In this document: positions 55,247 through 58,967 of the stretch, one piece after another
Numbering within the stretch: the stretch's first letter is position 1
Layout: every line of letters starts with the position of its first letter
Assembly: GCF_019090095.1 (NCBI RefSeq)
Contig: NZ_JAGQFP010000002.1
Span: 620,001-684,000, forward strand
From: Stutzerimonas stutzeri
GTDB lineage: Bacteria > Pseudomonadota > Gammaproteobacteria > Pseudomonadales > Pseudomonadaceae
Direction: 5' to 3'
DNA length: 64,000 nucleotides
Notes under the pieces: generated by a model
Told to the model about the DNA's origin: nothing
What the model saw: the letters and a program-made list of their open reading frames with translations, nothing else
Databases searched by the model: none
Translations under genes and position numbers: made by a program

Positions 55247-56392
55247 ATGGAATTCGAGAAACTGTTGCGTCTGATGGTCGAGAAGGGCGGCTCCGATCTG
55301 TTCATCACCGCCGGCGTGCCGCCTTCGATGAAGGTCAACGGCAAGATCATGCCGGTGAACAAGACGCCGATGTCACCGGAAATGACCCGTGAAACCGTGC
55401 ATTCGGTGATGAACGAGCAGCAACGTCGGGACTTTGCCGAGAACCACGAGTGCAACTTCGCCATCAGCGCGCGTGGCATCGGTCGCTTTCGCGTCAGTGC
55501 GTTCTATCAGCGCAACCTCGCCGGCATGGTGCTGCGTCGTATCGAAACCAATATCCCGACGCTCGAAGACCTGAAGCTGCCCGACGTGCTGAAGAAGCTG
55601 GCCATGACCAAGCGTGGTCTGGTGCTGTTCGTCGGCGCGACTGGCACCGGCAAGTCCACGTCGCTGGCTGCGATGATCGGCTATCGCAACAAGAATTCCA
55701 GCGGGCACATCATCTCCATCGAAGACCCGATCGAGTTCATTCATCAGCATCAGAGCTGCATCGTCACCCAGCGCGAGGTCGGCATCGACACCGAATCCTT
55801 CGACGTCGCCCTGAAGAACACCCTGCGTCAGGCGCCCGACGTCATCCTCATCGGCGAGGTGCGGACCCGCGAAACCATGGACTATGCCGTCGCCTTCGCC
55901 GAAACCGGGCACCTGTGCCTCGCGACGCTGCACGCCAATAACGCCAACCAGGCGCTGGACCGGATCATCAACTTCTTTCCAGCCGACCGTCAGCAGCAGG
56001 TCTGGATGGACCTGTCGCTGAACCTGAAGGCCATCGTCGCCCAGCAGCTAATCCCGACGCCGGACGGCAAGGGCCGCCGCGCGGTCATCGAAGTCCTGAT
56101 CAACACGCCGCTGGCAGCCGACCTGATCCGCAAGGGCGAGGTGCACGAGCTCAAGTCATTGATGAAGCGCTCCACCGATCTGGGCATGCAGACGTTCGAC
56201 CAGGCGCTGTACAACCTCTACGTGCAGGGCGAAATCACTTACGAAGACGCCCTGCTGCATGCCGACTCGTCCAACGACCTGCGCCTGATGATCAAATTGG
56301 GCTCGGAAACCGATAGTGAACACCTGACGTCCGTCTCCCAGGGGCTGACGCTCGAAGTCAGCGATGACGATCCGGGGCGCAGTTTCCGCTGA
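55247..56392 (+). CDS. pilU: PilT-dependent retraction ATPase PilU
   Basis: A 381-residue paralogue of PilT that assists retraction under load. Walker A is GATGTGKST (about 141-149 of the protein), Walker B DVILIGEVRTRETM, His box LCLATLHANNA. The acidic C-terminal tail of about 35 residues (SLTLEVSDDDPG near its end) distinguishes PilU from PilT. Start ATG 55247 (MEFEKLL) as in relatives. Its stop is adjacent to that of the convergent TIGR03915 gene. Confidence 0.97.
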   Translation: MEFEKLLRLMVEKGGSDLFITAGVPPSMKVNGKIMPVNKTPMSPEMTRETVHSVMNEQQRRDFAENHECNFAISARGIGRFRVSAFYQRNLAGMVLRRIETNIPTLEDLKLPDVLKKLAMTKRGLVLFVGATGTGKSTSLAAMIGYRNKNSSGHIISIEDPIEFIHQHQSCIVTQREVGIDTESFDVALKNTLRQAPDVILIGEVRTRETMDYAVAFAETGHLCLATLHANNANQALDRIINFFPADRQQQVWMDLSLNLKAIVAQQLIPTPDGKGRRAVIEVLINTPLAADLIRKGEVHELKSLMKRSTDLGMQTFDQALYNLYVQGEITYEDALLHADSSNDLRLMIKLGSETDSEHLTSVSQGLTLEVSDDDPGRSFR

Positions 56393-57223
56393 TCAGGGCT
56401 GGCTGGGCGGTCCGATTCGCTTGCCCGGCCGATTGGCAACCCGTTCGGCCTGGCCGTCGCGTTGTGCGCCGGCCCGGGCGCGGCTCATCAATTGCGGGAT
56501 CAGCGGCCCTTCCGGCAGATTTTTCCAGAAGCGCAGCGGCAGGTGACTCTGCATCACCTGGCGGTTCAGCCGCGCCGGGTTGAAAGTGCTTTCATAGTAG
56601 GTCTTCCACAGCTCCGTTCCGGGATCCTGCGAGGTCTGCGCCAGCTGTCGCCAGGCAGGCGGGCAGGGGCAGAAGTGGAGCAGCTGGACCCCATTCCATA
56701 GCACGGCGTCATCCGGCGTCGCGATCAGCCAGGTGTGCAGCCCCATCCGGTCGGCGAAGTGCGGGGCGGCGCTGGGCAGGATGTCGTGCGCGGGTTCGAA
56801 CCAGGCCACATAGTCAGGCGCATCGGCCGCGCTCGTCGGGCTGAAGCGCAGGAAGGCGTGCATATGGTGCGCTTCTCGACGCACCGCCTTGATCCGCGCG
56901 TGCAGCTCGCTGCCATCGACATCACCGACCAACCGCGCCGTGCGGTCACCTCTGACGACGCGCCAGAGAATGCGGTACAGCAAGCTCCAGCGATCCGGCG
57001 TGCGAAACCGTGCTGCACATTCGAGTTCGCCGATCAGCTCACGTGAAATCCGCACGGTAGGCATTGGTTCGCCGGCAGCGGCTGTGTCGAGTCCATCGAA
57101 CAAACCGCCAGGTTCATCGGCTCCGAGCCACTCCACCTGATGCGGCGCGACGCCCTCGCGCAGCAGCTCACGTGCCGCATCACGCCAGCCCTCGAAGCAC
57201 TCGTCGAAGCGTACCTGACGCAT
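56393..57223 (-). CDS. TIGR03915-type putative DNA-repair protein (DUF4130)
   Basis: A 276-residue protein of the family found next to, or fused with, uracil-glycosylase-like UdgX domains and adjacent to TIGR03916 radical SAM genes. Here it stands alone, without a UDG domain. Visible patterns are the RVLWRVVRGDRTARLVGD-like helix (about 88-105), HAFLRF (about 122) and YYESTFNPARLN near the C-terminus. No enzymatic motif can be named. Its ATG shares one base with the radical SAM stop (TAATG), so the two are coupled; a GTG at 57229 is an alternative. SOS box upstream of the pair. Confidence 0.82.
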   Translation of the reverse strand: MRQVRFDECFEGWRDAARELLREGVAPHQVEWLGADEPGGLFDGLDTAAAGEPMPTVRISRELIGELECAARFRTPDRWSLLYRILWRVVRGDRTARLVGDVDGSELHARIKAVRREAHHMHAFLRFSPTSAADAPDYVAWFEPAHDILPSAAPHFADRMGLHTWLIATPDDAVLWNGVQLLHFCPCPPAWRQLAQTSQDPGTELWKTYYESTFNPARLNRQVMQSHLPLRFWKNLPEGPLIPQLMSRARAGAQRDGQAERVANRPGKRIGPPSQP

Positions 57224-58434
57224 TACCACAACCCTAGCTGCGCGGGGCCTTCGCTGAGCTGCTGCCGCAGAACAGCGGAGGCCTGGTAGGCCAGCCTCGG
57301 CCGGTAATCCTGGGTGATGACGAAGGGCTTGGCCTTTTCCAGCGAGCAGCGCAGACGCGTCAGGTCTTCGAAACGAATACGTTTCTGTCGGCGCAGTGCG
57401 ACCAGGCGCTTGGCGCTCAGCAGGCCGATACCGGGAATCCGCGCGATCAAGGCGGGTTCGGCCTTGTTCAGGTCGACGGGGAAGTGTTCTCGGTGGGACA
57501 GTGCCCAGGCCAGCTTGGGGTCGATATCCAACGGCAGGTTGCCGGGGCCGGCCAGCAGTTCGTTGGCGCCGAAGCCGTAACCGCGCATCAGGAAGTCGGC
57601 CTGGTACAGGCGATGTTCGCGCAGCAGCGGGGGCGCCTCGAAAGGCACGGTCTTGGGGCTGTGCGGGATGGGGCTGAAGGCCGAGTAATAGACCCGGCGC
57701 AGGCGGTAGTCGGCATACAGCGACTGGGCCGTATGGAGGATGGTGCTGTCGTCCGTGGCATCGGCGCCGACGATCATCTGTGTGCTTTGCCCGGCCGGTG
57801 CAAAGCGCGGCGCGCGCCGCTCGGCCTGGGCTTCGGCCTCTCCTTGATGAATCGAGTGCATGGCTTGCTTGATGGTGACGACCTGCTTCTCCGGCGCCAG
57901 GCGAATCAGGCTGGACTCGGTGGGCAGCTCGATATTGACGCTGAGGCGGTCGGCGTAGCGGCCGGCCTCGGCGATCAGCAGCGGGTCGGCGTCGGGTATG
58001 GTTTTCAGGTGGATGTAACCGCGAAACTCATGCTCCTCGCGCAGCAGCTTGGCGACACGGTTGAGCTGCTCCATGGTGTAGTCGGCCGACCGAATGATGC
58101 CGGAGCTGAGAAACAACCCGCTGATGCAGTTGCGCCGATAGAAATCGAGCGTCAGCGCCACCACTTCCTCGGGCGTAAAGCGTGCTCGTGGAACATCGCT
58201 GGAGCGGCGATTGACGCAATACTGGCAGTCGTACAGGCAGAAGTTGGTCAGCAGCACCTTGAGCAGCGCCACGCAGCGTCCATCCGGCGTGAAGCTGTGG
58301 CAGATGCCCATGCCGTTGGTCGCACCCAGCCCGCTCTTGCCTTTAGAGCTGCGCTTGGGGGCGCCGCTGCTGGCGCATGACACGTCATATTTGGCGGCGT
58401 CGGCGAGGACGCTGAGTTTCTCGATCAACTGCAT
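57223..58434 (-). CDS. TIGR03916-type radical SAM protein, putative DNA modification/repair
   Basis: A 403-residue radical SAM enzyme with cluster cysteines Cys66-x3-Cys70-x2-Cys73 (CLYDCQYC). Three more Cys precede it (Cys20, Cys45, Cys54), a number that could bind a further cluster. The C-terminal third has a helix-hairpin-helix (IPGIGLLSAKRLVALRR, from residue 333), a non-specific DNA-binding fold. This is the reason the family is thought to act on DNA. The reaction is unknown. Its start lies 12 bp from a LexA/SOS-like palindrome. It is the first gene of a two-gene operon with the TIGR03915 partner. Confidence 0.88.
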   Translation of the reverse strand: MQLIEKLSVLADAAKYDVSCASSGAPKRSSKGKSGLGATNGMGICHSFTPDGRCVALLKVLLTNFCLYDCQYCVNRRSSDVPRARFTPEEVVALTLDFYRRNCISGLFLSSGIIRSADYTMEQLNRVAKLLREEHEFRGYIHLKTIPDADPLLIAEAGRYADRLSVNIELPTESSLIRLAPEKQVVTIKQAMHSIHQGEAEAQAERRAPRFAPAGQSTQMIVGADATDDSTILHTAQSLYADYRLRRVYYSAFSPIPHSPKTVPFEAPPLLREHRLYQADFLMRGYGFGANELLAGPGNLPLDIDPKLAWALSHREHFPVDLNKAEPALIARIPGIGLLSAKRLVALRRQKRIRFEDLTRLRCSLEKAKPFVITQDYRPRLAYQASAVLRQQLSEGPAQLGLW

Positions 58435-58446
58435 GGCGGCTACCGT

Positions 58447-58470
58447 GATACTGTTTGCATATACAGTATC
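58447..58470. promoter_or_regulatory. LexA/SOS box upstream of the radical SAM operon
   Basis: GATACTG ... CAGTATC: the core CTG-N10-CAG (58451-58466) with flanking TA/TA matches the E. coli/Pseudomonas LexA consensus CTGTATATAnnnnCAG type. The 24-bp site is palindromic in its 7-bp arms. It lies 12 bp from the radical SAM start and 98 bp from the TM2-protein start. It therefore most likely makes the repair pair DNA-damage inducible. Confidence 0.85.
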
Positions 58471-58568
58471 ACGGCGCGCTGGTGAACCGATGCCCGCTCG
58501 GCAGACGTGCCAGCGGTTGCGAATCGGATAAGCTCAGCGACGACACCCAATCAATCAGTGAGGCTCAG

Positions 58569-58967
58569 ATGCGGCAGAACACCCACAGCACTTTGATCGG
58601 CTATCTCCTGTGGATTTTCGGATTTCTCGGTTCTCACCGTTTCTACTACGGCAAGCCGATCACCGGCACCCTCTGGTTCTTCACGTTCGGTTTGTTCTTC
58701 GTCGGCTGGATCATCGACCTGTTTCTGATTCCGTCGATGGACCGGGAGGCGGACATGCGTTTCCAGCCGGGTCCGATCGATTACACCGTGGCCTGGATCC
58801 TGCTGACCTTTCTTGGCGTATTCGGCGTGCACCGGATGTACCAGGGCAAATGGATTACCGGTCTGATCTATCTGTGCACCGGCGGGCTGTTCTTTGTCGG
58901 CGTGCTCTATGATTTCTGGACGCTGAACAGCCAGGTATCGATGCGCAACATGGAAAAGCGCTGGTAA
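58569..58967 (+). CDS. Double-TM2-domain membrane protein
   Basis: A 132-residue protein with two TM2 modules in tandem. Each has two hydrophobic helices joined by a (G/V)xHR(F/M)Y segment: GFLGSHRFYYGKPITGTLWF (about 17-36) and GVFGVHRMYQGKWITGLIYL (about 84-103). TM2 proteins usually carry one copy, and their role in bacteria is unclear. GAGG 6 bases before ATG 58569 is the ribosome site; the longer frame from 58455 is not used. It is divergent from the SOS-box operon. Confidence 0.85.
   Translation: MRQNTHSTLIGYLLWIFGFLGSHRFYYGKPITGTLWFFTFGLFFVGWIIDLFLIPSMDREADMRFQPGPIDYTVAWILLTFLGVFGVHRMYQGKWITGLIYLCTGGLFFVGVLYDFWTLNSQVSMRNMEKRW

Follow-up and report, generated by a model that had tools for sequence, protein, structure and literature searches.

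An operon named COG1573-COG4277 has been reported in the SOS networks of Bacteroidetes, with Verrucomicrobia and Alphaproteobacteria cited as well, and is described in the same paper as a uracil-DNA-glycosylase (UDG) base excision repair system (PMC8565304). LexA control has been predicted for CAC3343-CAC3344 from Clostridium acetobutylicum (PMC3828012), and the domain DUF4130 has been tied to SplB-like radical S-adenosylmethionine (SAM) proteins (PMC3765255). A pair of genes of this kind is present in the 64,000-nucleotide stretch of Stutzerimonas stutzeri DNA analyzed here and referred to as the window (contig NZ_JAGQFP010000002.1, positions 620,001 to 684,000). It consists of a gene for a radical SAM enzyme, followed by one for a DUF4130 partner protein, and lies behind a LexA-type operator. 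A gene of this annotation is upregulated in desiccated Acinetobacter (PMC13130816). The reading favored here, which we consider probable, is that enzyme and partner act together on damaged nucleotides in DNA, repairing or reworking them.

The enzyme is a member of TIGR03916, which we take to be COG4277, and the partner of TIGR03915; both exceed the curated cut-offs of their families, but the UDG implied by the family name rSAM_link_UDG is missing here. The COG1573-COG4277 operon resembles the window's pair in having SOS motifs before its COG4277-type gene and differs in its UDG-repair label. CAC3343-CAC3344 belong to another phylum and are likened to the pair by description only. Because SOS control has already been reported or predicted in other phyla, the pair is a member of a known, uncharacterized kind, and not the unnoticed system for which a preliminary description of this DNA had taken it. 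Neither TIGR03915 and TIGR03916 by name nor experimental chemistry for the pair was found in the literature searched, which excluded most subscription papers; a single paper in it mentions DUF4130. As far as the searches show, the new elements are a single gene under switched operators at such frequency, a near-obligate pair with a dispensable UdgX-type domain, a decay series of this domain within one genus and, tentatively, a RecJ-like fold for DUF4130. The main features of the locus are the following:

58443..58474, no strand: 32-bp SOS operator CCGTGATACTG-N10-CAGTATCACGG, with a 24-bp core at 58447-58470; 28.47 bits with the SOS matrix of the same genome
57223..58434, minus strand: radical SAM gene, 403 aa, TIGR03916 (rSAM_link_UDG); 540.9 bits, cut-off 343.5
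56393..57229, minus strand: partner gene, TIGR03915 / DUF4130, without a UDG domain; 205.4 bits, cut-off 112.25
56510..56998, minus strand: DUF4130 (PF13566), partner residues 78-240; 132.7 bits, cut-off 27
57221..57225, minus strand: TAATG stop/start overlap, read in the sequence

The SOS operator and its conservation

The core site GATACTGTTTGCATATACAGTATC lies at 58447-58470, 12 bp from the enzyme ATG. The preliminary description had placed a 24-bp LexA-like site there; its position holds, but the true dyad is longer, spanning 32 bp with perfect arms of 11 bp each. The bare pattern CTGT-N8-ACAG is not rare in this genome, where it occurs in 21 places, against 15 for a control pattern read backwards. 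Among the 14 of the 20 other places that were inspected, five AT-rich sites precede the genes for LexA, RecA, ImuA, topoisomerase III (topB), and a FAN1-like nuclease, and these five boxes, a small training set, were used to build an SOS matrix. The site of the pair scores 28.47 bits; no other 24-mer of the window exceeds 13.29, and the maximum over 20 shuffled windows is 17.53. Since the five training boxes obtain 9.5 to 27.2 when each is left out in turn, the site matches the quality of the genome's own SOS boxes, in line with the earlier claim of a LexA target.

Other genes of the genome also lie behind SOS-type boxes. The FAN1-like nuclease gene lies downstream of its SOS-type box in locus L003 (G000:C1:546300-548800), and a second SOS-boxed radical SAM gene, in L005 (G000:C2:140800-143300), has the box ATAACTGTATTTATATACAGTATG with 32.8 bits. 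Its product belongs to a different family, PA0069 (NF033668, 500 bits), and its pairwise alignment to the window enzyme is meaningless (best E 0.26).

Conservation was followed in 398 genomes of the phylum, 99 of which have some TIGR03916 match and 84 one above the cut-off; the 15 genomes with short sub-threshold matches only were dropped, and the stretches were read for all 84, with expected motif counts derived from the rest of the same loci. Within 120 bp upstream of the enzyme gene, the window's class, Gammaproteobacteria, carries CTGT-N8-ACAG in 20 of 30 loci (0.09 expected) and CTG-N10-CAG in 25 of 30 (1.59 expected). The other proteobacterial classes carry GAAC-N7-GAAC, in either orientation, in all 54 loci (0.16 expected), a direct repeat given as the motif of Alphaproteobacteria in PMC8565304. 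Neither group carries the motif of the other (0/30 and 0/54 upstream regions). Altogether, lineage LexA motifs precede the enzyme gene in 79 of the 84 loci, with fewer than 2 expected. Among 1680 simple shuffles of 250-bp upstream regions, 2 gave an exact palindrome and 16 an exact direct repeat. The enzyme gene is present in 47 of 56 genomes of the window's genus and absent from 9; in the 30 of these 47 loci that were read, CTG-N10-CAG is found in all and CTGT-N8-ACAG in 29.

The five loci of the window's class lacking CTG-N10-CAG are L016, a Bacteroidota-like copy, and L047, L052, L053, and L057. Two dyads, GGTTTCC-N5-GGAAACC and one resembling GGTCTCAT-N3-ATGAGACC, lie at the gene start in each of L052, L053, and L057, which come from one gammaproteobacterial genus. 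The L016 protein is 90% like that of Psychrobacter. The Psychrobacter/Moraxella copies (L016, L099-L102) share more with Chryseobacterium (68%) than with the window protein (50%), which suggests that they came by horizontal transfer; upstream of these copies, none of the box types tried was found in exact form.

When an alignment headed by L016 was used for a scan, 80 named loci were obtained, the top 80 among at least 590; the set is biased to Bacteroidota, which account for 72 of them. Two SOS-network motifs are reported for Bacteroidota in PMC8565304; upstream of these loci, CTAA-N5-TTAG occurs in 21 of 72 (0.27 expected; 5 of 1600 shuffles over 200 bp) and GGA-N5-TCC in 11 of 72 (1.86 expected; 30 of 1600 shuffles). 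A published motif core is thus present in 32 loci, and 40 have neither.

A coincidental dyad, or one that serves the divergent TM2-type gene and leaves the pair outside damage control, is hardly credible. That gene does lie on the far side of the site, but the lineage motifs recur before the enzyme gene in the proteobacterial loci far above expectation, and in every same-genus locus read. Chance origin of the dyad was rejected on the matrix scores together with this conservation. That one pair is kept under SOS-type operators whose sequence differs from lineage to lineage is strong evidence for a real role in DNA damage, and SOS control of the pair, as the preliminary description had proposed, appears as sure as sequence can make it.

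A near-obligate pair with an optional UdgX-type domain

Enzyme and partner form a near-obligate pair. Above the cut-offs, the 398 genomes hold both families in 84 cases, the enzyme alone in none, the partner alone in 3, and neither in 311. The partner follows the enzyme on the same strand in 82 of 84 stretches; the two exceptions, G229 and G241, have it at a distance of about 3 kb. Among the Bacteroidota loci, it is in the stretch at 69 of 72, 64 of these within 400 bp, and it was not seen in the fetched stretches of L128, L162, and L175. The three genomes with a partner and no enzyme (G200, G217, and G287) belong to genus g109, whose other sampled members have both.

The UDG part, said to be absent from the window in the preliminary description, is indeed missing: no UDG family matches the partner, which looks like a loss in this lineage. 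With a profile built from 57 fused domains, UDG was found in 60 of the 84 proteobacterial stretches, 59 times within the partner's own reading frame. As the stretches of L049, L050, and L055 end too early for a call, 81 loci are testable, and in 21 of them UDG was not seen. GEQPG, an R-loop ending in His, and HPS are the motifs of UdgX according to PMC10359453. The fused domains of other Proteobacteria mostly show GEQPG and HPS, with an R-loop ending in His in 59 of 60; it is this UdgX-like domain that the window's pair lacks.

Several proteobacterial copies are altered: L076 has AGQPG and KARAR, L087 has TRKH after an insertion, and L084 has LRRKH. In the window's genus, UDG is present in 3 of the 30 loci read, two of which keep GEQPG and RLH, and the third, L205, has GAQPG and no R-loop His. 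In L076 and L205, the motif A Glu and the R-loop His are therefore gone from a domain still fused to DUF4130, and both domains read as decaying remnants. For 36 of the 84 enzymes, a tree was made by a quick search; on it, the UDG trait needs 7 changes, at least 3 of them forced by well-supported branches. Among Bacteroidota, where up to 4 kb on each side was covered, UDG was found in none of the 72 loci. The UdgX-type domain is an accessory: most proteobacterial loci have it fused to the partner, and most of the genus to which the window belongs has a decayed copy or none.

A separate UdgX was not found above the family cut-off in the window's genome. The best TIGR03914 match there obtains 26.7 bits, with a cut-off of 189.95, and has GRDPG in place of the GEQPG of UdgX. 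The genome encodes an Ung-type protein, as read from its sequence, a second UDG-superfamily protein without UdgX motifs, and a third, weak UDG match. The L001 protein was considered as a hidden UdgX and rejected, as it belongs to the UDG superfamily without having the UdgX motifs. Two SRAP (YedK/HMCES-type) genes are also present (G000:C2:1479191-1479841 and G000:C2:1292977-1293555).

These data bear on the proposal that the system serves UDG base excision repair, as COG1573-COG4277 is described in PMC8565304. The 59 proteobacterial loci with a partner fused to a UdgX-type, mostly motif-bearing domain speak for it; against it stand the window's pair, the testable proteobacterial loci without UDG, and the Bacteroidota stretches, which hold DUF4130 in 69 cases and UDG in none. 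In L076 and L205, moreover, the domain has decayed while enzyme, partner, and operator stay. As an account of the whole system this proposal is very unlikely, and UDG repair as the core function was rejected, since pairs devoid of UDG keep enzyme, partner, and operator. Since the domain is an accessory, the published label does not fit the core; for the Bacteroidota operon, this label was probably carried over from the fused proteobacterial proteins.

At the junction of the two genes, the minus strand reads GTGGTAATGCG, with one base common to the TAA stop and the ATG; the coupling noted in the preliminary description is present, and both genes lie where it placed them. The partner has 276 aa from the ATG at 57223 and 278 aa from an alternative in-frame GTG two codons upstream. 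Both genes would be co-transcribed as one operon. No sigma-70-like promoter was found by a simple scan, and no Rfam family matches 56000-58800. Among named proteins, the closest come from Pseudomonas and Stutzerimonas (91-94% identity). Judging by names read from translations, pilT/pilU-like genes lie on one flank; the opposite flank holds the TM2-type gene together with pyrC/pyrB-like genes.

There is little sign of a mobile system, given the few phage matches and the mostly non-mobilizable plasmids. Matches were found in 10 of 50,697 phage records, 8 being human fecal contigs labeled 'Bacteriophage sp.' without annotation and 2 coming from one Acinetobacter phage, and in 158 of 72,556 plasmid records (predicted non-mobilizable 142, mobilizable 9, conjugative 7). 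The Acinetobacter phage, MD-2021a (CAKLQH020000003.1 and CAKLQF020000004.1, 240 kb each), has an annotated TIGR03916-type gene 50.5% identical to that of the window.

The enzyme and its partner protein

The features of the enzyme that bear on its chemistry are:

58216..58239, minus strand: CLYDCQYC, the radical SAM CX3CX2C motif, Cys66/70/73 (sequence, Pfam, alignment)
58273..58377, minus strand: N-terminal stretch with invariant Cys20, Cys45, His46, and Cys54, predicted second metal-cluster site (alignments)
57358..57480, minus strand: putative C-terminal helix-hairpin-helix, predicted DNA contact (PF12836, residues 319-359, E 1.9e-5)

The radical SAM domain PF04055 scores 29.5 bits, equal to its cut-off of 29.5. 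The three extra N-terminal cysteines of the preliminary description are residues 20, 45, and 54; together with Cys66/70/73 they are conserved without exception in the 84 proteobacterial copies and in all 64 rows of a wider alignment. A second iron-sulfur cluster is predicted on Cys20/45/54. The C-terminal helix-hairpin-helix is seen by PF12836 as well, with 25.1 bits, slightly under the 27-bit cut-off.

The AlphaFold2 model of the enzyme has a mean predicted local distance difference test (pLDDT) of 84.7, with residues 21-55 as a low-confidence stretch. In fold searches the enzyme resembles LipA and HydE most, a likeness that comes with only 11-16% identity and barely covers the helix-hairpin-helix part. 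Sequence searches against solved structures gave matches to the helix-hairpin-helix and the radical SAM loop only. The best 25 of 52 NCBIfam families matched by 64 members include ThiH, HydE, MoaA, CofH, MqnE, and LipS1, the last of which matches some other TIGR03916 members (best E 1.8e-4). For the window enzyme itself, 9 NCBIfam families are listed at E up to 10, and none of these is a LipA model.

The pair could instead modify DNA or RNA, for instance by a LipA-like insertion of sulfur from the second cluster, leaving a protective mark during the SOS response or a change in tRNA rather than a repair. LipA has three cysteines just N-terminal to its radical SAM triad, as the window enzyme does, and comes first among several tied fold matches, with an alignment from residue 3 (from residue 1 for human LIAS). 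Nevertheless, the cysteine spacing of LipA differs from that of the window enzyme, and the fusion with UdgX speaks for damaged or uracil DNA as the target, so that modification is an unlikely account of the pair.

Another candidate reading is an enzyme like SplB, the spore photoproduct lyase, that reverses thymine lesions. Like SplB, the window enzyme is a radical SAM protein with a link to DNA damage, and DUF4130 has itself been linked to SplB-like proteins (PMC3765255). However, SplB is found neither among the best 25 of the 52 NCBIfam families nor among the best 50 rows of either fold list, and the genome's PA0069-family enzyme does not align meaningfully with the window enzyme. Such absences are not proof, and a SplB-like reaction is considered quite improbable.

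The model of the partner has a mean pLDDT of 92.1. RecJ, Cdc45, and the DHH phosphoesterases head the fold lists for DUF4130 (residues 1-201), a superfamily with catalytic Asp motifs. Such motifs were not found in DUF4130: across 78 sequences, the 12 invariant and the 7 nearly invariant columns all hold residues other than Asp. At loose thresholds, the best 25 of 39 Pfam families comprise DUF4130 itself and scattered matches of one or two members. The solved-structure sequence search gave nothing better than E 0.19, and hhalign found no match to RecJ in what is a weak comparison, the RecJ alignment being narrow (effective number 2.3). A RecJ/Cdc45-like fold without conserved Asp is tentatively proposed, and the adaptor role suggested for the partner in the preliminary description would fit it, as far as this fold holds.

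Proposed function

Under the favored reading of a damage-induced pair that repairs or reworks nucleotides in DNA, RecA filaments would trigger the cleavage of LexA, and the pair would be derepressed as one operon. The partner would be a catalytically silent adaptor holding single-stranded or gapped DNA, and the enzyme may be anchored via its helix-hairpin-helix. The lesion would then be changed in place by the 5'-deoxyadenosyl radical, with the predicted second iron-sulfur cluster on Cys20/45/54. In many Proteobacteria, the fusion of a UdgX-type domain to the partner would add the capture of uracil or abasic sites; the window's lineage would have lost this domain and kept the core. We infer LexA binding, the adaptor role, DNA as the substrate, and the reaction; a repair chemistry is plausible, and for the damaged base named as the substrate in the preliminary description the analysis gives no direct evidence.

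A more specific version is possible but doubtful: an SOS effector of two phyla, under four LexA operator types, in which a two-cluster enzyme directly reverses a DNA lesion by radical chemistry, a dead RecJ-like protein serves as its adaptor, and UdgX is a mere add-on. If true, direct radical reversal would be a repair chemistry besides those of photolyase, AlkB, Ada, and spore photoproduct lyase. The separation of the core, radical SAM enzyme and DUF4130, from the optional UdgX indicates that the assay to perform is that of a radical reaction on damaged DNA, and not of uracil excision. The window's genus offers a ready comparison set for this purpose, as the UdgX motifs are kept, decayed, or missing depending on the species.
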